35,599 nucleotides of DNA from Bacillota bacterium (GTDB lineage: Bacteria; Armatimonadota; HRBIN16), in the NCBI GenBank assembly GCA_023511455.1, contig JAIMBJ010000033.1, positions 1 through 35,599 on the forward strand. Direction: 5' to 3'. The position numbers were made by a program, and so were the translations under genes. Below are positions 3,190 through 25,327 of this stretch, piece by piece. The notes beneath the pieces were generated by a model, which had not been told where the DNA came from, did no database searches, and saw only the letters and a list, made by a program, of their open reading frames with translations. Each line of letters starts with the position of its first letter. Position 1 is the stretch's first letter.

Positions 3190-6100
3190 ATGGGTTTGAG
3201 AAAATCTTTCCGCAATCCGGGCATGGAATACCGCGGCGCGCCGTTCTGGTCGTGGAACGACCGGCTGGAGGACGCCGAGCTGCTGCGCCAGATCGACAGC
3301 ATGATGCAGGCGGGGATGGGAGGCTTTTTCATGCACTCCCGCGCCGGGCTGCTGACCGAATACATGTCGAAAGAGTGGATGCAGCGCATCCGCACCTGCG
3401 TCAATGCCGCCAGAGAGCGGGGAATGCTGGCGTGGTTGTATGACGAGGACCGCTGGCCTTCCGGCTTCGCGGGGGGCGACGTGCCTGCCATGCACCCTTC
3501 CTTTCGCGCCAAGCACATCACCTGGCTGCAGGGTGAGGCAGCGCGTTCCGAAGAGGCAAATACGCTGGCAGTCTACTCCTGTGTGTTTCGGGATGGGCAC
3601 CTGCGCGACTTCCAGCCTCTTCGCACGGGGGAAAGCGTGCCAGCCGGGCGTGAGGTCTTGCGCTTCGTGTGGCGGTATGACCCACCCAGCCCCTGGTATA
3701 ACGGCGGCACCTATCTGGATACCCTCAATCCCGAGGCGGTGGCGGCTTTCCTGAAACACACCTACGACGCCTACGCCCGCGAGGTAGGCGAGGAGTTCGG
3801 TAAAGCGGTGCCCGGAATCTTCACAGACGAGCCGCACTTCGGCAAGTTCTTCCAGCCGGATAAACTTCCTTACACAGAACGACTGCCCGAGGCGTTTGAA
3901 GCCGCGTACGGCTATCCCCTTGCCGAAGCTCTGCCCGCACTGTTCTTTGACACTCCCGATGCCACCGCACATCGCTACCGTTTCTATCGCCTTGTGACGC
4001 AGATGTTCGTGCAGAGCTTTGGTAAACAGCTATACGACTGGTGCGAGGCGCATGGCATTCACCTCACAGGGCACTATCTGCTGGAAGACACGTTTCACGA
4101 CCAGATTTCTGCCATCGGCGCAGCCATGCCCCTGTACGAGTACATGCAGTCTCCCGGCATCGATCATCTGGGCAGGCGGTTGCCGGACGCCCTGCTGGCA
4201 AGGCAGGTCTCCAGCGTGGCGCGGCAGATGGGCAGGCGGCGCGTGCTGTGCGAAACCTACGGCTGCTCGGGCTGGAACATCTCGTTTGCCGAGCAGAAAT
4301 GGATTGCCGATAACCTGTTCGTGCAGGGTGTAACCTACATGAACCAGCACCTCGCGCTCTACTCCATGTGGGGCGGACGCAAGCGTGATTTCCCGCCTTC
4401 TATCTTCTACCAGCAACCCTGGTGGAAGCACTACCGCTACCTCTCCGACTACATGGCGCGGGTGACGCTGATGCTGCAATCGGGCACGCCGTGCAGTGAA
4501 CTGCTGGTACTGCATACCATCGGGTCGGGATGGGCAACCTTTCGCCCGGACGACCAGCAACAATGCGCCCGCTACGGAGAGGCGTGTATGCGCGTGAGTA
4601 CCTGGCTGAACGAGATGCAGCATGACCACGACTTCGGCGACGAGCTCATCATGCAGAAGCACGCTCGTGTGGAGGGCGACTACCTGCGCATCGGACAGGC
4701 GCTTTATCGCCTGATAGTGATACCGCCCGCGCTGACTCTGGCGCGCTCTACCGTGCAGCTGTTGCGCGAGTGGCTGGATGCTGGTGGACGGGTTATCACG
4801 GTGGGCGAAGTGGCTTCGCAGATAGAGGGCGTTCCCGCCGCCGACCAGCTCGCCGCGCTCTGGAACCACCCCAGCGTGGTGCGCCTCCCGGAGGACTTCG
4901 CCGCGCTGCAGGAAACGGTGGATGCCCTTCTCCGCCCGATGGTGCGCGTCACCTACCCCAACGGCAACATCTGCCGTTCGGTATATGCCCGCGTGGTGCG
5001 CCGCGATGACGGCGCGCTGGTGGTGTTCCTGGTGAACCGCGCGTTGAACGATGACCAGGGCGAGCTCATCGTACAGGTGAACGGTGATGGACACCTGAGC
5101 CAGTGGAAGGCGGAAACGGGAGAAATCATCACCCTGCCGACGGATAAAACCGCCGAAGGCATGAAGCGGTGCAGCCTGCCGCTTGGCGCGGCACAGTCGT
5201 ACCTGCTGATGCTGGATGGACAGGCAGGCTCCACCTACGAACGCAGAAAGCATCCCGCCATGCAGATAAACCTGGACGGCAACTACCGCGTGGAACGCAC
5301 CGAACCGAACGTCCTGCTGCTGGACTACGCGACGCTCACCCTGCCCGGGCAGCCGCCAACCGAACGGTTGCCCATGTGGAAACTGCACCTGCGCCTTGCG
5401 GAGCATCTGGGCATCGACCCCGACCTGCATAACGGCGGGGTTTCCCTCTGGAAGCGCGAGCGGGAGCGCCAGTCGCCTCCCAAAACCTGCGACGTGGTGC
5501 TGACCTACACCTTCGAGAGCCGCATCCAACCGAAGACGCCGGTCACGCTGGTGGTGGAAAAGCCGGAGTACAGCCGCTTCGTGGTCAACGGCATGGAGAT
5601 AGACAACACCGACAGGGGCTGGTGGCTGGACATCGGCTTCCGAAAGCTGGACATCTCCGGCACTATTCGCCCCGGTGCGAACGTCATCGAACAGCATCTC
5701 CACTTTGTGGAAGGGCTGACGCTGGAACCCATCATGATACTGGGGGATTTCGGGGTATCGCCGACGAAAGACAACCGGCAGTTCGTGCTGGACGAGGAGC
5801 CGTCGATGATTACGCTGGAAGACTGGTGCCCCCAGGGGTATCCGTTCTACTGCGGTTCCATGCGCTTCACGTGGCGGATACATCTGCCCGGCGAGTCACA
5901 GCGTATCGTGCTGGAGTGCCAGAAGCCGCATGCCCCCGTTTGTAGCGTGCATGTGAACGGGCAGTACGCGGGGTTGCTGGCGTGGCATCCGTACGAGGTG
6001 GACATCACCGACCTCGTGCATGAGGGGGAAAACGAAATCACGGTGGAGGTGTTCACCAGTCCGCGCAACCTGCTGGGACCGCTGCATCACCAGCAGGACG

Positions 6101-6213
6101 AGCTGTACGGCGTGGGACCGGAGAGCTTCACCGCAGGTGAGCAGTGGACGGACGAGTACCGTTTCGTGCCGTACGGGTTGCTGACGCCACCGCGCATCGT
6201 CATTTACGAGTGA
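3190..6213 (+). CDS. GH106-like alpha-L-rhamnosidase
   Basis: A 1007-residue protein resembling glycoside hydrolase family 106 (PF17132), which releases alpha-L-rhamnose from plant polysaccharides and glycosides. Typical features are APFWSWNDRLEDAELLRQI near the N-terminus, GMGGFFMHSRAGLLTEYMS, and GMLAWLYDEDRWPSGFAGG (about residues 78-96). Later come IFTDEPHF and an acidic/aromatic barrel section (CETYGCSGWN). The C-terminal third contains GH2-like jelly-roll sugar-binding segments (VHVNGQYAGLLAWHPYEVD, near 925). Length agrees with the family. No clear signal peptide is seen, so the enzyme may act on imported oligosaccharides. The neighbouring propeller and ThuA-like genes suggest a polysaccharide-utilisation cluster. 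Substrate specificity cannot be fixed from sequence. Confidence 0.85.
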   Translation: MGLRKSFRNPGMEYRGAPFWSWNDRLEDAELLRQIDSMMQAGMGGFFMHSRAGLLTEYMSKEWMQRIRTCVNAARERGMLAWLYDEDRWPSGFAGGDVPAMHPSFRAKHITWLQGEAARSEEANTLAVYSCVFRDGHLRDFQPLRTGESVPAGREVLRFVWRYDPPSPWYNGGTYLDTLNPEAVAAFLKHTYDAYAREVGEEFGKAVPGIFTDEPHFGKFFQPDKLPYTERLPEAFEAAYGYPLAEALPALFFDTPDATAHRYRFYRLVTQMFVQSFGKQLYDWCEAHGIHLTGHYLLEDTFHDQISAIGAAMPLYEYMQSPGIDHLGRRLPDALLARQVSSVARQMGRRRVLCETYGCSGWNISFAEQKWIADNLFVQGVTYMNQHLALYSMWGGRKRDFPPSIFYQQPWWKHYRYLSDYMARVTLMLQSGTPCSELLVLHTIGSGWATFRPDDQQQCARYGEACMRVSTWLNEMQHDHDFGDELIMQKHARVEGDYLRIGQALYRLIVIPPALTLARSTVQLLREWLDAGGRVITVGEVASQIEGVPAADQLAALWNHPSVVRLPEDFAALQETVDALLRPMVRVTYPNGNICRSVYARVVRRDDGALVVFLVNRALNDDQGELIVQVNGDGHLSQWKAETGEIITLPTDKTAEGMKRCSLPLGAAQSYLLMLDGQAGSTYERRKHPAMQINLDGNYRVERTEPNVLLLDYATLTLPGQPPTERLPMWKLHLRLAEHLGIDPDLHNGGVSLWKRERERQSPPKTCDVVLTYTFESRIQPKTPVTLVVEKPEYSRFVVNGMEIDNTDRGWWLDIGFRKLDISGTIRPGANVIEQHLHFVEGLTLEPIMILGDFGVSPTKDNRQFVLDEEPSMITLEDWCPQGYPFYCGSMRFTWRIHLPGESQRIVLECQKPHAPVCSVHVNGQYAGLLAWHPYEVDITDLVHEGENEITVEVFTSPRNLLGPLHHQQDELYGVGPESFTAGEQWTDEYRFVPYGLLTPPRIVIYE

Positions 6214-7364: not shown

Positions 7365-8117
7365 CTACTGCGTTTCACCCCCGTCGATCTGCCTCACCTG
7401 CGCGAAGCGGGACAGGAACGGCTCGCCCAGCGCGGCTTCGAACTGCTGCAGCCACCCGCGGATGTAGCCCTCGTCCAGATGGGGGTTCTTCAGCCAGATG
7501 CGTCGGCAATCCTCGATGTCGCGTGGACGCCCGGCAATCACTTTGTGGATAATCACGTCCTCGGGCGAGGCGAAGCAGACCTCCGTCGCGCCAAACGGCA
7601 CGCGCCGCACGCGCCGCAGCGCCTCCTGCTCATAAGCCGATTGCGCAAAGATGACGTCAATGCGTATCCCGCTGGCTTCGTCGCGGCAGGGCAAAACCAT
7701 CGTGCGTCTCACAAAGGCTTCAGCATCCTCCACCAGCACCTGCCAGCCCAGTGCGCGCACCGCTTCCAGCACCACTGGCAGACCCTCTGGGGCGACCCCA
7801 ACGGTCACGTCCACATCCGCCGTGAGGCGCGGCTCTCCGTACAACAACACCGCCTGTCCGCCAATCACCATGTAGGCGATCGAGCGGGCATCGAACTCTC
7901 GTGCCATCTTCTCCAGCAGGTCGCGAAACATGAAACACCTCACCAGTCGGGTTTTGCGCGAGACGTCCTCCAGCGGGTCTATCGGAGGATATGCTCCCAT
8001 TTGCCGCGCGTGCTGGTATAACGCCTCGTAAAGGCGCAGGTTTCGGTCAATATCCGCCGCCTCCCGACGGATGTACTCTGCTTCCCAGCGGCGCCAGTGC
8101 GCGCGGTCGGCAATCAT
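7365..8117 (-). CDS. nucleotidyltransferase-fold protein with N-terminal extension
   Basis: A 250-residue protein with a minimal nucleotidyltransferase fold, as in AbiEii/MenT-like and related uncharacterised families. The motif is YMVIGGQAVLLYGEPRLTAD then VDVTV, giving the Gly-Gly and the metal-binding Asp pair (about residues 83-108). The later part SPEDVIIHKVIAGRPRDIEDCRRI is typical of these proteins. The first ~70 residues form a separate charged helical region (WRRWEAEYIRREAADID, then PPIDPLEDVSRK) that in relatives may be a small stand-alone protein. The gene follows gatB by 15 bp and is probably co-transcribed with it. Function is unknown; a toxin-like or RNA-modifying role is a family-based possibility only. 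Confidence 0.72.
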   Translation of the reverse strand: MIADRAHWRRWEAEYIRREAADIDRNLRLYEALYQHARQMGAYPPIDPLEDVSRKTRLVRCFMFRDLLEKMAREFDARSIAYMVIGGQAVLLYGEPRLTADVDVTVGVAPEGLPVVLEAVRALGWQVLVEDAEAFVRRTMVLPCRDEASGIRIDVIFAQSAYEQEALRRVRRVPFGATEVCFASPEDVIIHKVIAGRPRDIEDCRRIWLKNPHLDEGYIRGWLQQFEAALGEPFLSRFAQVRQIDGGETQ

Positions 8118-9584: not shown

Positions 9585-9693
9585 CAACACAACCTCCACA
9601 GGACGTTTGTCGCACTATTGTTGCGACTGGTTACACTGCGCTACCCGCTCAGGGAGAGTGCCCATCGGCTGACTACCACGCAAACTGTCCTTT

Positions 9694-9767
9694 GTCATGC
9701 TGATCGCCAGCGAAGCATCTCATCTGTCACCGCAAGAACCGAGATTCTTCGCTCCGCTCAGAATGAC
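9694..9767. repeat. palindromic dispersed repeat, copy 1
   Basis: The left arm begins GTCATGCTGA and has GCGAAGCATCT; the right arm has AGATTCTTCGC and ends CTCAGAATGAC, so the arms can pair as a long imperfect hairpin. Elements with these arm sequences are widespread non-coding repeats in several bacterial phyla. It lies upstream of gatB, outside coding sequence. Confidence 0.75.
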
Positions 9768-9780
9768 AGAGAAACCCTTT

Positions 9781-9871
9781 GTCATGCTGAGCATCAGCGA
9801 AGCATCTCGTCCTCTGTTACCGTGAGCGCACACGAAGGGGCTCGGAGATTCTTCGCTTCGCTCAGAATGAC
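9781..9871. repeat. palindromic dispersed repeat, copy 2
   Basis: A second copy in the same orientation, 13 bp after the first. The outer arms (GTCATGCTGAGC and GCTCAGAATGAC) are nearly the same as in copy 1, while the central loop is longer and different. From 9872 to 10234 I see no gene or further structure that I can support. Confidence 0.75.
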
Positions 9872-10234
9872 AAGGAGGTTCGTTCAGAACCCATCCTGTG
9901 TGCGTATCTGGCTGTAGACCGCTGGCGCGCTCTCCCACTGCGTAGCCGTTATATTGTATCAGAAAAGAGGGGTTGTGTGTAAGCACCTTCCGATTGCTCC
10001 GCTGGCTGGAGAAGGCAGCCTCCGAAGCGGGCGCGAAATGGGTGGTAGTTGGCATTGGTAAGAAAGAAGACCTGCTAAATATCCAGCTCGGTTCTCGACC
10101 TTATCCGTCCACCCATCCCTTCCTGAACCCCCTCAGAGGAATCCGCCCTGGAATGCCGAACTGTTCTCTATCTCAACGGCACTTGCCTGTGGATACCACA
10201 CACGGCGGCAGCGGGGCGACAATATCGTCAAAAC

Positions 10235-12853
10235 ATGACCATCTCACGCACCCATCCGATAGTGGCGGTGATTCTCGCGGCGGGGCGCGGCACGCGCATG
10301 AAAGCGTCCCACCTGCCGAAAGTGTGTTTTCCCATTGCGGGCGTGCCTGCCATCGCGCGGGCGGTCGAGGCGTACGTGCGCTGCGGCATCCGGACGCACT
10401 GCGTGGTGGTGGGACAGGGGGCGGAAGCCATCATGGGCGTGCTGAAAGACCTGCCCGGACAGCGCATCTACGCCCATCAGCCCGAGCCTCGGGGCACGGG
10501 ACACGCCACCCGCGTGGCAGTCGACCTGTTGCGGTCGCTGGGCTACACCGGCGACGTGCTGGTAGTGGCAGGCGACAAGGTGATCGAGGAAGCCTTCCTC
10601 GCGCGGCTGATAGACACCTTCTACTCGACCCGCGCCGACCTCGCCTTCGCGGTGGGTAGCGTTTCGGACTTCCCCACCTCGGGGCGCGTGGTGCGCGATG
10701 CGGGGGGCAGGGTTTGCGCCATCGTGGAGGTGTTTGACCTCGCGCGGGCGCAGGTATTGCGTTCGCTGCGGGAAGCCGCGCACAACGCTCCTCTCACCGC
10801 CGAGCAGGCAAGGCGCCTCGTCGCCCATGCGTTCCCGCAGGAGAAGAAGGCGGCACGTGCGCTGGGTGAACTCTGGCAGGATATCGAGCGTGGCGAGGTT
10901 ATCCCGCTCGAACGGATACCTCAAGAGGACGGGGTTCGCGCCGGGCTCGCCGTTCTGCCAGTGGAACAGGTGGAAACCGCGCAGGAAGCGAATCTGTCGG
11001 TCTATCTGTTCCGCGCCCCCCTGCTCTACGATGCGCTCGGCAGATTGTCCGCCGATAACGCGCAGGGCGAGGAGTATCTCACTGACATCGTGGCGTTGCT
11101 GGCGCAGCGCGGGGCGAACATCCAGACCGTGCCGGTCGCCTATCCCGAAGAGGCGATGGCGTTCAACACCCCCGAAGAGCTGCAGGCTATCGAGCGATAC
11201 CTCACCACCCGCGGCGGGGTGCAGGTGCAGGAACCGGTGCGCGGGGTGCGCATCGTCAGCCAGTGGCTTGCCGCGTTGGAGGGGGGCGATACGGATATCC
11301 TGCGCCTGCTGCGCGAGACCTACGGGGGAGACGATGCCACCGCGGAGAGCAAGCGTCGCCGTCTGCTGGCGTTGCTGGCCCTGCACCTGCAACGTTTTGG
11401 TGACCAGCCGGTGGTGATAGCGCGCGCACCGGGCAGGGTGAACATCATGGGCAGGCACATCGACCATCAGGGCGGGCACGTCAACATGATTGCCATCGAC
11501 CGCGACGTGCACGTGGTGGTGGGCTTGCGTTCGGACCGGCAGGTGCACCTGCAGAACCTGCGTCCGAAAGAGTTTTCGCCGCGGGAGTTCTCGCTGGATG
11601 ACCTGTTGCAGGGTTATCAGCCGGGCGCGTGGGTGGAGTTTGTGAACAGCGCGGCGGTGCTACAGGCGGCGGCAGCCTCCCGCGGCGAATGGTCGCAGTA
11701 CGTCAAAGCCGCCTGCGCCCGTTTGCAGGCGCATTTCGCCGACTTCCGCCTGCCCGGTTTCAACCTGAGCGCGGACGGAGATGTGCCCATCGGCGCGGGG
11801 CTGAGCTCCTCGTCGGCGGTGGTGGTGGCGACGATGGAAGCGCTACTGCACCTGAACCAGTTTGCCCTGCCGCCGGAGCAGTTCGTGGATTTGTGCGGGG
11901 AAGCTGAGTGGTATGTGGGCACGCGCGGGGGCGCTGGCGACCACGCGGCGATGAAATTCGCACAGCGCGACGCCGTCGTGACCATGCGCTTTTTCCCGTT
12001 TCAGGTGATGGGAACCACCCCCTTCCCCAAAGGTTATCGCTTCCTGGTGTGCCATTCGCACCAGCAGGCGAAGAAGACCGCCGGTGCACGCGACCAGTTT
12101 AATCACCGCGTGGCGTGCTACCATCTGGGCAGAGAGTGGCTGAAGCACACCTTCCCACACCTTGCGCCGCGCATCGAGCATCTTCGCGATGTGAACACCG
12201 AGCAGCTGGGCATCCCGCTTGCCGGGCTCTACCGCCTGCTGAGCCACCTGCCGGAGCTTGTTGAGAGACAGGAGATACTGGAACGCCTGCCCGCCGAGCG
12301 CGTCCTGCCCTACCTGAATACGCATGACGAGAAACTGAACCGCTATCCCCTGCGTGCGGTGGTGCTGTTCGGGCTGGCAGAGTGCGAGCGCAGCCGCCGC
12401 ACCGCCGCAGTGTTGCGCGATGGGCAACTGCACACCTTCGGGCTGTGGATGAACTGCTCACACGACGGCGACCGTGTCGCCCGCTGGAACCAGGACGGCA
12501 GTGAGTACCAGCCGTTCCAGATGGACTACTCCGACTCCGCCCTGCAAAGCCTGTCCCGGCAGGCGGAGCGTCACGCTGGGCACGCCGACCTGGCACTGCA
12601 ACCGGGCGCGTACGCCTGCAGCACCCCCGAGATCGACTGGATGGTGGATGTGACCCTGCAGGTGCCCGGCGTGCTGGGCGCGCAGATACTGGGCGCAGGG
12701 CTAGGAGGCTGTATCCTGGTGCTGGTGCGTGAAGACGCCTGCGACGCCGTGCAACACGCGCTCATCGACCGCTACTACGCGCCGCGCGGGCTGGAACCGG
12801 ACATGTTCGTGTGCCAGCCTGTAGCGGGCAGTGGTATCATCGCCACCCAGTAG
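10235..12853 (+). CDS. GlmU-like nucleotidyltransferase fused to GHMP sugar kinase
   Basis: An 872-residue fusion. Residues 1-330 are a GT-A nucleotidyltransferase: LAAGRGTRM (14-22), PK at 28-29, QPEPRGTGHA (82-91) and the metal Asp in VAGDK (D114), closest in style to GlmU-type uridylyltransferases but without hexapeptide repeats. Residues about 385-872 are a galactokinase-family GHMP kinase: GRVNIMGRHIDHQGG (400-414), the phosphate loop VPIGAGLSSSSA (517-528), catalytic-base candidate D569 in GGAGDHAAM, and LGAGLGGCILVLV near the C-terminus. Such an enzyme could phosphorylate a free sugar at C1 and convert it to a nucleotide sugar, as FKP does for fucose. The usual GEHTD sugar-binding motif is GRHID here, so galactose is not the assured substrate. 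The ATG start has only a weak upstream ribosome site. Confidence 0.88.
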   Translation: MTISRTHPIVAVILAAGRGTRMKASHLPKVCFPIAGVPAIARAVEAYVRCGIRTHCVVVGQGAEAIMGVLKDLPGQRIYAHQPEPRGTGHATRVAVDLLRSLGYTGDVLVVAGDKVIEEAFLARLIDTFYSTRADLAFAVGSVSDFPTSGRVVRDAGGRVCAIVEVFDLARAQVLRSLREAAHNAPLTAEQARRLVAHAFPQEKKAARALGELWQDIERGEVIPLERIPQEDGVRAGLAVLPVEQVETAQEANLSVYLFRAPLLYDALGRLSADNAQGEEYLTDIVALLAQRGANIQTVPVAYPEEAMAFNTPEELQAIERYLTTRGGVQVQEPVRGVRIVSQWLAALEGGDTDILRLLRETYGGDDATAESKRRRLLALLALHLQRFGDQPVVIARAPGRVNIMGRHIDHQGGHVNMIAIDRDVHVVVGLRSDRQVHLQNLRPKEFSPREFSLDDLLQGYQPGAWVEFVNSAAVLQAAAASRGEWSQYVKAACARLQAHFADFRLPGFNLSADGDVPIGAGLSSSSAVVVATMEALLHLNQFALPPEQFVDLCGEAEWYVGTRGGAGDHAAMKFAQRDAVVTMRFFPFQVMGTTPFPKGYRFLVCHSHQQAKKTAGARDQFNHRVACYHLGREWLKHTFPHLAPRIEHLRDVNTEQLGIPLAGLYRLLSHLPELVERQEILERLPAERVLPYLNTHDEKLNRYPLRAVVLFGLAECERSRRTAAVLRDGQLHTFGLWMNCSHDGDRVARWNQDGSEYQPFQMDYSDSALQSLSRQAERHAGHADLALQPGAYACSTPEIDWMVDVTLQVPGVLGAQILGAGLGGCILVLVREDACDAVQHALIDRYYAPRGLEPDMFVCQPVAGSGIIATQ

Positions 12854-22380: not shown

Positions 22381-23517
22381 TCATGCCTTGATATACCGCC
22401 GCATATAGCTTCTTTGCCGATATTCCGCCACCAGCTTCGGGTCTATCGGATAGTTGCCGTATTTGCGCGCCGCCTCCACCATCGCCACGTAGTTCTCCGG
22501 CTTGACGGCAGGGTGGATAGAGTTACTGGACGCCAGAATGTGTCCCCCGCCCGGCGAAGCTTTGGCGATAGTCTCTTTGACCGCTTCTTCTACCTCCTCG
22601 CGTGTGCCCTGCGTCAACACCATTGAGCAATCCACATTCCCGATGACCGCGATACGGTCGCCGTAACGTGCTTTCACCTCTCCGATGTCCATGTCCGCCA
22701 GCGGCTCGATGGGGTCGATGGCGTCGATACCGGCTTCCACCATCATATCCATAATAGACCAGATGTTGCCGTCGGTATGCTTGGTGTAGGGTACACCCAT
22801 CTCATGGGCGGCATCGATACTGCGCTTCAGGTAAGGCAAAATAAACTCGCGGAAATGCGCCGGGCTCATCATCAAGCCGTGCGCGGTGGCATAATCATCG
22901 CCTGAGACGATAGCGTCCGCACCTTCGCGGATAGCGCGGCGCATCAGGCGTATTTTGTAGTCCATCACCATCTCTGCCAGCGTGTGCGCCAGGTCGGGGT
23001 CATCGAAGTAGTCCACCAATAGATTCTCCATACCCCCGCGCAGGTAGTGAGGAAACTCGAAGCCGTCGTGCGTCAGGAAGACGATGGCTTTGCGCCCTTT
23101 GAACCGCTGCACCGCCTCGCGCAGGGAACGCAGGCGATGCGGGGCATCGGGGTCGGGAGGGGTATAGTGCTTGAGGTCTTCCCGGGAGCGAATGGGGCCC
23201 TCAATCGGGTAAGGGATGCCGAAGTCGGTAACGCCCCATACAATCCCCCATTCGTCGCGCACAATCTGCTGCGTGCCTTCCACAATGGTGCGTCCCCGCC
23301 AGACCACCTCCGATTGCTGTGCCGAACCGAGCAGCTGCATTTGCATGTCCTCGAAGATGGTGATACCGTCCAGATGGTCCATCTCCGCAAGGTCTTCCAG
23401 CGACTTTGCCCCGACTGCGGAAAGGGTCGGCTCGTTCACAATGAGTTCCCACAGGGGGACCCTGTCGGGTTCCCCCTGGCGCAGCAAGGCAGTCATGAAA
23501 CGCTCATAGCTGTTCAT
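22381..23517 (-). CDS. uroporphyrinogen decarboxylase-family protein (URO-D-like)
   Basis: A 378-residue member of the URO-D superfamily (PF01208), which includes HemE and corrinoid-dependent methyltransferases such as MtaA. The beginning SYERFMTALLRQGEPDRVPL is typical of the non-HemE branch, as are GADAIVSGDDYATAHGLMMS, YTKHTDGNIWSIMDMMVEA and GGGHILASSNSIHPAVKPEN. The His-x-Cys zinc site of MtaA-type enzymes is replaced by HTD, so a zinc-thiolate role is doubtful. ATG 23517 is chosen because GGAGG lies 5 nt upstream; a GTG two codons earlier overlaps that site. The gene ends a compact operon and overlaps the preceding mini-ORF by ATGA. The substrate is unknown. Confidence 0.85.
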   Translation of the reverse strand: MNSYERFMTALLRQGEPDRVPLWELIVNEPTLSAVGAKSLEDLAEMDHLDGITIFEDMQMQLLGSAQQSEVVWRGRTIVEGTQQIVRDEWGIVWGVTDFGIPYPIEGPIRSREDLKHYTPPDPDAPHRLRSLREAVQRFKGRKAIVFLTHDGFEFPHYLRGGMENLLVDYFDDPDLAHTLAEMVMDYKIRLMRRAIREGADAIVSGDDYATAHGLMMSPAHFREFILPYLKRSIDAAHEMGVPYTKHTDGNIWSIMDMMVEAGIDAIDPIEPLADMDIGEVKARYGDRIAVIGNVDCSMVLTQGTREEVEEAVKETIAKASPGGGHILASSNSIHPAVKPENYVAMVEAARKYGNYPIDPKLVAEYRQRSYMRRYIKA

Positions 23518-23609
23518 GTACACCTCCTGCAGGAGCGGATGCCCTCATGAGTTAACATGTGCACAGTCTCCTGCCACAGGTCAAACAGGCGAATATCCTG
23601 CTTCTCCAT
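23514..23609 (-). CDS. 31-codon mini-ORF with CxxC, between nitroreductase and UroD-like genes
   Basis: This small frame starts with ATG at 23609, 5 nt after AGGAGG formed by the end of the nitroreductase gene, and stops at TGA 23514-23516, which overlaps the ATG of the UroD-like gene (ATGA). It begins MEKQDIRLFDLWQETV and ends GIRSCRRCT, so it has a CRRC pair. The tight fit at both ends (2 nt after the previous stop, 4-nt overlap with the next start) suggests real translation and coupling to the UroD gene. I do not recognise a family. It could instead be only a translational coupler whose peptide has no function. Confidence 0.5.
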   Translation of the reverse strand: MEKQDIRLFDLWQETVHMLTHEGIRSCRRCT

Positions 23610-24154: not shown

Positions 24155-25327
24155 CTATACATACCGTCCATACTCTTTGCCTGTCTCATACATCGCCCAA
24201 AGGTTCTCCAGAGGAGTACCCGGCGCGAGGTTGTTGCCCTCACGCAGGATGAATTTACCACCTTCCATCACACCGCTTTGCAGGATACGGATGGTCTCTT
24301 CGCGCACCTGTTCCGGCTTGCCGTGATGCAACAGGGGAACCGCCGGACCTCCCAGCAATTCCACATCCGGACCCAAATCGCGCCTCGCCTTGCCCAGATC
24401 GATGGGGAATCCGGTGTCGATGGAGCACACGTTCAGCCTGTCACGCAGGAAGACCAGATGGCGTTGCACGTCCCCGCACAGGTGGATGCCTATCGGCTGG
24501 CTGGGGTCTTCCATCAGCTCTTGCTTGAGGCGCACGTGGAACGGGTAAACCATCTCCTCGTACATGCGTGTGCTTAACAGTTCGATGCTGTCGTCTGCAA
24601 AGCCCCAGCCTCCCGATACCTTCTCGGGCTGCCCGAAGTAACGCCGGTAGGCTTTGATGCGAGTGATAATGGCGGTGGTGACGAAATCCAGCAGCTGCAG
24701 GGCATAGTCGGAGTCTTCGATGAGGTCCCCCGCGAACTGGGATGCGCCCCGCAGGTTGCAGCAGATGGTCATTGGGCCGTCTGTGCCCATGCCTGTTGGC
24801 GTCACGGAGGCGATGGGTTTGCCATACATCGTCCAGCCCTCGTCCTGCTTGCGCTTCATGTATTCGTAGAACTCCCAGTTGCGCGCCATTAACCCTCCGG
24901 TAAAGGGGTCGGGAATGCCTTTGTCAAACAGCAGGTTTTTCTTATCACCCACCAGCAAAGGTTCCACATCGGGTACCTGGTCGGGGTAGTAGCGGACAGC
25001 ACAACCCAGCCACGCCGCCTCGTACACGTTCTGAAAGTCCACATAAACATCCCAACCCTTCTGCGGCATGCCCATTTCGGTATCCTGCGGCACGTGGTGG
25101 CGTACCCAGTAGATGTGCTCCACCTGCCGCTCTAGCATCAGCTGCGGGTCGTGGAAGTACTGCTCGAAAGTGATGCCGCGCGGGTTAGATTCTGGCATCC
25201 ACATGGTAAAGCGCGGGTTGATGCCCCAGATGATAGGCACGCGCACGGGCTTCCCCGTGCGATAAGCCTCCCATACTTGCTGCACCTCCGCGTTATGCGC
25301 TTCGAAATCGATGGTATGCACGGACAT
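24155..25327 (-). CDS. uroporphyrinogen decarboxylase-family protein, zinc-site type
   Basis: A 390-residue URO-D superfamily protein, first gene of the minus-strand operon. The sequence PVRVPIIWGINPRFTMWMPE near the start and QPIGIHLCGDVQRHLVFLRD (about residues 290-310) fit the methyltransferase-like branch; the His-x-Cys in IHLCGD matches the first half of the zinc site seen in MtaA/MtbA-type methyltransferases. The expected distal Cys is not obvious (REGNNLAPGTPLENLWAM). ATG 25327 follows GGAGG with 8 nt spacing. Together with the second, divergent UroD-like gene, a nitroreductase and a mini-ORF, it may form a demethylation or small-molecule conversion pathway. No corrinoid protein gene is adjacent. 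Confidence 0.85.
   Translation of the reverse strand: MSVHTIDFEAHNAEVQQVWEAYRTGKPVRVPIIWGINPRFTMWMPESNPRGITFEQYFHDPQLMLERQVEHIYWVRHHVPQDTEMGMPQKGWDVYVDFQNVYEAAWLGCAVRYYPDQVPDVEPLLVGDKKNLLFDKGIPDPFTGGLMARNWEFYEYMKRKQDEGWTMYGKPIASVTPTGMGTDGPMTICCNLRGASQFAGDLIEDSDYALQLLDFVTTAIITRIKAYRRYFGQPEKVSGGWGFADDSIELLSTRMYEEMVYPFHVRLKQELMEDPSQPIGIHLCGDVQRHLVFLRDRLNVCSIDTGFPIDLGKARRDLGPDVELLGGPAVPLLHHGKPEQVREETIRILQSGVMEGGKFILREGNNLAPGTPLENLWAMYETGKEYGRYV

Follow-up and report, generated by a model that had tools for sequence, protein, structure and literature searches.

A GlmU-like nucleotidyltransferase fused to a GALK2-like kinase, conserved across at least ten phyla: a candidate one-protein route from free sugar to UDP-sugar

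Introduction

Can one bacterial polypeptide take a free sugar through to its UDP-activated form, and if so, which sugar? The question is raised by a gene at 10235-12853 (+) in a 35,599-nucleotide stretch of DNA from a genome bin of the HRBIN16 lineage of Armatimonadota (contig JAIMBJ010000033.1; referred to below as the window). The open reading frame starts with ATG, encodes 872 residues without an internal stop and, as indicated by the frame itself, by Pfam, by its relatives and by a structural model, joins an N-terminal GlmU-like uridylyltransferase domain to a C-terminal GHMP sugar-1-kinase domain of the GalK/GALK2 type. The original prediction for this locus was of a single-chain salvage enzyme leading from free sugar to UDP-sugar, with galactose, galacturonate, glucuronate, arabinose and GalNAc as candidate substrates.

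Results

Domain layout and predicted structure

The nucleotidyltransferase (NTase) domain comprises residues ~9-326 (10259-11212, +) and is recognized by the motif LAAGRGTRM...K29, by its conserved residues and by its fold matches, and the kinase domain comprises residues ~384-869 (11384-12841, +), with a galactokinase signature, the ATP loop PIGAGLSSSS and the base motif GGAGDH. The flexible linker at residues 327-340 (11213-11254, +) is the lowest-confidence stretch between the domains, with pLDDT blocks of 67 and 72, and the codon-position GC bias is equal on either side of the junction. In Pfam, NTP_transf_3 and NTP_transferase match at 11-181 and GalKase_gal_bdg, GHMP_kinases_N and GHMP_kinases_C at 384-848, all exceeding the curated cut-offs; with both kinase domains, the Ser-rich loop and the catalytic Asp, the protein belongs to the GHMP kinase superfamily (PF00288/PF08544/PF10509). 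The same scan detected no acetyltransferase half of GlmU, that is, no C-terminal left-handed beta-helix. The NCBIfam scan returned matches below cut-off only, including TIGR00131 galactokinase (E 2.8e-46; 158.2 bits against a cut-off of 226.65) and TIGR01173 GlmU (123 bits against 367), and the protein is named by no curated model.

An AlphaFold2 model of the whole fusion, built with 55 family sequences, has a mean pLDDT of 91.5 and a pTM of 0.67, and consists of two well predicted domains with a low-confidence stretch at about 321-340 between them. In the PDB, this full-length model is closest in fold to human GalNAc kinase (2A2C; E 7e-28, target TM 0.82), with galactokinases next. When modelled alone, the NTase domain reaches a pLDDT of 93.5 and a pTM of 0.90, and its top 36 PDB matches are 36 GlmU chains, with other nucleotidyltransferases coming after them. 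Together with the best sequence matches, which are GlmU for the NTase and GalNAc kinase and galactokinase for the kinase, these folds bear out the composition that had been predicted, namely a GlmU-like NTase placed ahead of a galactokinase-like kinase. The kinase domain is also matched by a distant relative deposited as 'AbGHMP' (PDB 9ulx/9uly; 498 aa), for which no paper was found in the open-licence literature under 9ulx.

A helical insertion of ~75 residues (174-247; 10754-10975, +) lies between the NTase strands of E165 and N253. It is present in 67 of the 80 fusions compared, and is missing in the other 13 and in GlmU. By position it would be near the sugar side of the GlmU-type site, where it may cover the site as a lid or make contact with another domain.

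The fusion is a single gene in many phyla

The fusion is a genuine single gene. The same single frame with the same start residue was found in nine of the ten genomes of the genus, at 76-94% identity, the tenth genome, in which no fusion was found, being 80% complete. Across the phylum, 55 of 251 genomes contain a relative at E<=1e-40; many of these relatives are full-length fusions at 41-51% identity and others consist of the kinase alone, the open frames of 954 and 3174 aa of kinase-only relatives not being taken as lengths, as the DNA shows kinase genes of ~600 aa. A scan of named genomes gave 373 relatives, which were narrowed to the 79 best distinct loci, and at 74 of these one frame covers more than 90% of the match. 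The loci are labelled as Armatimonadota, Chloroflexota, Planctomycetota, Lentisphaerota, Verrucomicrobiota, Hydrogenedentota, Calditrichota, KSB1, Sumerlaeota, Spirochaetota, Myxococcota and a Bacillota bin; one of them (L097) is from the cultured strain Oligosphaera ethanolica DSM 24202, and one Asgard archaeon (Sigynarchaeum) also carries the fusion as a single frame. The fusion is thus conserved across at least ten phyla. Some of the bin labels may be wrong, since loci labelled as Actinomycetota (L046) and Calditrichota (L112) share near-identical neighbours; the fusion locus of L112 is split into two frames. Plasmid records gave no match to the fusion at E<=1e-30, and no description of the bacterial fusion was found in the open-licence literature.

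The search for the same architecture in relatives that the original prediction had proposed was therefore positive, and the pair of genes joined by sequencing that it had named as a possible refutation was not seen: independent genomes, an identical start and an intact single frame rule out an artefact of assembly or annotation. A recent join of an ordinary GlmU and an ordinary GalK is also ruled out. The genome of the window also encodes a GlmU and a galactokinase-like protein in separate genes elsewhere, from which the domains of the fusion have diverged, and the fusion is therefore not simply either of them.

Fused and split forms

In another family of the phylum (genomes G036, G049 and G058), the kinase gene is immediately preceded by a separate NTase gene that overlaps its start, and in a further genome (G194) the NTase and kinase matches are in separate frames 72 bp apart. 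This arrangement as separate but neighbouring genes suggests a shared pathway for the two activities. In a kinase tree of 94 rows, which also contains several kinase-only lineages, the fusions cluster, with three label changes against a shuffled mean of 13.3. Across 80 fusions, the distances between pairs of NTase halves correlate with those between the matching kinase halves at r 0.84, the maximum in 1000 permutations being 0.10, which shows that the two halves have travelled together in evolution.

A divergent kinase branch, formed by the kinases of the family with overlapping genes (L030, L032 and L029) and by L033-L036, has NPHSDHQG in place of GRHIDHQG. With a separate overlapping NTase gene upstream in several of its members, this branch probably represents a related pathway that is encoded by two genes and handles a different sugar.

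Conserved residues of both active sites

In the NTase domain, R21, K29, Q82, G87, T88, D114, E165 and N311 are invariant in the 80 fusions and N253 is kept in 79, at a median pairwise identity of 34% between the NTase halves (80 sequences). These positions align with the residues of GlmU for the nucleotide, the metal and the sugar phosphate. In the kinase domain, R397 (77/80), H408, D410, S524-S527, E558 and D569 (79/80) are kept. The four serines of the phosphate-binding loop PIGAGLSSSS (residues 518-527; 11786-11815, +) are invariant (80/80), and Asp569 (11939-11941, +), the presumed catalytic base, is followed by the equally invariant His570. Catalytic roles have been assigned to the matching Arg and Asp in a structural study of the bifunctional fucose enzyme FKP (PMC11982464). 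The residues expected for both activities are thus conserved in 77-80 of the 80 sequences, in line with the original description of both sets of motifs as looking intact.

On alignment, two positions distinguish the family from galactokinases: residue 407 (11453-11455, +) is Arg in 79/80 fusions where galactokinases have the Glu of GEH(I/T)DY, which here reads GRHIDH, and residue 570, after the catalytic Asp, is His in 80/80 where galactokinases have Gln. In galactokinase structures, this Glu presumably contacts the C6 hydroxyl of the sugar. Because Arg replaces it at the presumed contact, plain galactose is an unlikely substrate, and Arg407 would suit a C6 carboxylate, such as that of a HexNAc-uronate or a uronate. 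A galactokinase-like paralogue in the same genome (L003:1099-2265 (-), contig C43 of G000), which adjoins an alcohol-dehydrogenase-like gene, reads GNHTDYNGG, with Asn at the galactokinase Glu position; this position therefore varies within the superfamily.

Gene neighbourhoods

The copy in the window has as neighbours genes for GatB, a LacI-type regulator, a DUF1559 pilin and a phosphoesterase, none of which is a sugar-nucleotide gene; past GatB the neighbours differ within the genus, so that nothing about the substrate can be read from them. The intergenic stretch that separates GatB from the fusion contains, at 9689-9872, a pair of short direct repeats (36 nt, 89%; 28 nt, 96%), the translations of which, ILRSAQND and FFASLRMT, resemble dispersed genomic repeats. 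Elsewhere in the window are a DUF6036/AbiEii-like nucleotidyltransferase (7365-8117, -), a 1007-aa protein that matches an alpha-L-rhamnosidase (GH106) over part of its length (3190-6213, +) and two uroporphyrinogen-decarboxylase/MtaA-like genes (22381-23523, -, and 24155-25327, -); genes similar by eye to the MtaA-like pair occur near other fusion or kinase copies (L120, L124, L125, L129 and L130).

Direct neighbours of the relatives, defined as same-strand genes no more than about 150 bp away, are more informative. A WbpP/TviC-type UDP-HexNAc(A) 4-epimerase, with WbpP and WbgU among its nearest solved structures, is a direct neighbour in two lineages (L046/L112 and L087/L100), at 16-43 bp. 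At L069 the direct neighbour is a TviB-type UDP-GlcNAc dehydrogenase, at L089 and L104 it is GlmS and at L044 it is an N-acylglucosamine-2-epimerase-like (AGE-like) gene. NagA is found near a fusion or kinase-only relative in three lineages: as a direct neighbour under the TIGR00221 cut-off (L047), 217 bp away on the opposite strand (L082) and, over that cut-off, downstream of a kinase-only relative (L124). The Asgard copy has two WbpP-like matches 1-3 kb away. The genome of the window contains a 57%-identical WbpP-like gene elsewhere, beside glycosyltransferase-like genes, and a single NagA query found no NagA in it. Amino-sugar genes, which were grouped as such after being seen, adjoin about 8-10 of the loci whose neighbours could be read, a minority, and many other fusion loci have unrelated neighbours. 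The neighbourhoods of the relatives therefore provide moderate evidence for amino-sugar nucleotides.

Discussion

Proposed reactions and substrate

Judged from its sequence, the fusion is very probably a one-chain sugar-1-kinase and nucleotidyltransferase that follows a two-step scheme in some form. The C-terminal GHMP kinase would use ATP to phosphorylate C1 of a free hexose-type sugar, and the N-terminal GlmU-like domain would convert the resulting sugar-1-phosphate and UTP to UDP-sugar and PPi, the choice of UTP being drawn solely from the similarity to GlmU. Both reactions and the identity of the sugar are our inferences. The one-protein route from free sugar to UDP-sugar proposed for this locus is strongly supported as a two-domain scheme, by the catalytic residues, by the fused, split and co-evolving forms and by the models, and it stands as a pair of predicted activities.

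As to the sugar, we lean towards a HexNAc type, the likeliest substrate being an N-acetylated hexosamine (GalNAc or GlcNAc) or a C6-oxidized form of it, which might come from degraded glycans or cell wall, with the product rejoining the UDP-HexNAc pools on which glycosyltransferases draw. We prefer HexNAc to galactose because the nearest folds are those of GlmU and human GalNAc kinase and because amino-sugar genes adjoin the relatives. Among the substrates initially listed, the folds and neighbours thus favour the HexNAc type, represented there by GalNAc, and Arg407 speaks against plain galactose. Arg407 is, however, also at odds with GalNAc kinase, which keeps the Glu. A bolder version, which we regard as quite unlikely, is that the fusion activates an N-acetylhexosaminuronic acid (GalNAcA or GlcNAcA) or another C6-carboxylated amino sugar to UDP-HexNAcA, with Arg407 reading the carboxylate; we know of no salvage route from a free HexNAc-uronate to UDP-HexNAcA in one polypeptide.

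The residue change at position 407 also bears on an unlikely but better placed alternative, in which the same two steps act on plain galacturonate or glucuronate and give UDP-GalA or UDP-GlcA, a route with counterparts in plants and zebrafish. Arg would suit the carboxylate at the presumed C6 contact, the zebrafish enzyme with the same domain order leads from GlcA to UDP-GlcA (PMC3938481), and at L069 the gene comes after those for a UDP-sugar dehydrogenase and an SDR epimerase. That dehydrogenase, however, scores best as TviB, a UDP-GlcNAc dehydrogenase, and not as Ugd, the NagA, GlmS and AGE-like neighbours indicate amino sugars, and the NTase has GlmU and not UDP-sugar pyrophosphorylase as its nearest kin.

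Still less probable is a neutral sugar, with galactose, arabinose or the like converted to UDP-galactose or a similar product: the Pfam galactose-binding signature and the TIGR00131 match (E 2.8e-46) point this way, whereas the galactokinase score is below the curated cut-off (158 against 227 bits), the signature Glu is Arg in 79/80 and the base-motif Gln is His in 80/80, a separate galactokinase-like gene exists in the genome and no Leloir-type genes were recognized among the neighbours. We give least credence to an active kinase with a regulatory or nearly inactive NTase half, which would make the protein a sugar kinase that carries a sensor domain. It would account for the many relatives with the kinase alone, and it recalls the zebrafish analogue, which had kinase but only trace pyrophosphorylase activity (PMC3938481); the ~75-residue insertion could also alter the sugar site. 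The expected NTase residues nevertheless remain invariant in 80 sequences at a median NTase identity of 34%, and the split forms retain an NTase gene that overlaps the kinase gene.

If the proposed activities hold, one-protein sugar salvage would operate in many Planctomycetota, Lentisphaerota, Chloroflexota, Armatimonadota and related bacteria, in which the fusion would be annotated as a partial GlmU or as a galactokinase. Such an enzyme could recycle the amino sugars or uronates of complex glycans. It would also offer one-pot synthesis of UDP-sugars a catalyst ready for use, where an engineered NahK-GlmU fusion has been tried before.

Comparison with known systems

Each half of the fusion has a well known counterpart. 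The uridylyltransferase domain of GlmU resembles the NTase in fold, motifs and residues and provides its closest sequences and structures, but GlmU continues with an acetyltransferase half where the fusion has a kinase, and most fusions contain a ~75-residue insertion that GlmU lacks. Human GALK2 (N-acetylgalactosamine kinase; PDB 2A2C) is the best match for the kinase both by sequence (profile E 3e-50) and by fold, but it has Glu in GEHIDY where the fusion has Arg, and the solved GALK2 has no NTase. The kinase NahK, for its part, is not known to be a GHMP kinase. As cited in PMC12525235, there exist a bifidobacterial NahK acting with a uridylyltransferase, which performs the chemistry proposed here (HexNAc to HexNAc-1-P to UDP-HexNAc), and an engineered NahK-GlmU fusion, which unites these two activities in one protein but unlike the present one is man-made.

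For the order of the two domains, the original comparison was with FKP, the L-fucokinase/GDP-fucose pyrophosphorylase of Bacteroides fragilis (PMC11982464). FKP also has an N-terminal NTase and a C-terminal GHMP sugar-1-kinase in one chain, with an Arg/Asp catalytic pair in the kinase, and also leads from free sugar to NDP-sugar, as is proposed for the fusion. Its NTase half, however, has a beta-helix and uses GTP, whereas the NTase of the fusion is GlmU-like without a beta-helix, and FKP is absent among the best 60 of 82 PDB matches of the fusion profile and among the matches listed for each domain. The parallel lies in the architecture. The closer precedent is zebrafish DrGKUP, a glucuronokinase/putative UDP-GlcA pyrophosphorylase (PMC3938481), in which an NTase of ~260 aa is followed by a GHMP kinase of ~360 aa and for which salvage to a UDP-sugar is likewise proposed. 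DrGKUP is eukaryotic; its authors set its NTase against RmlA/GalU structures and its kinase against plant glucuronokinase, and describe the bacterial and archaeal relatives of its NTase as stand-alone proteins (PMC3938481); this published description sets it apart from the bacterial fusion with its GlmU-like NTase and GALK2-like kinase. In conclusion, FKP and DrGKUP establish the principle of salvage by an NTase followed by a GHMP kinase, and the bacterial GlmU-like/GALK2-like fusion represents, by its architecture and predicted activities, a new and widespread variant of it.
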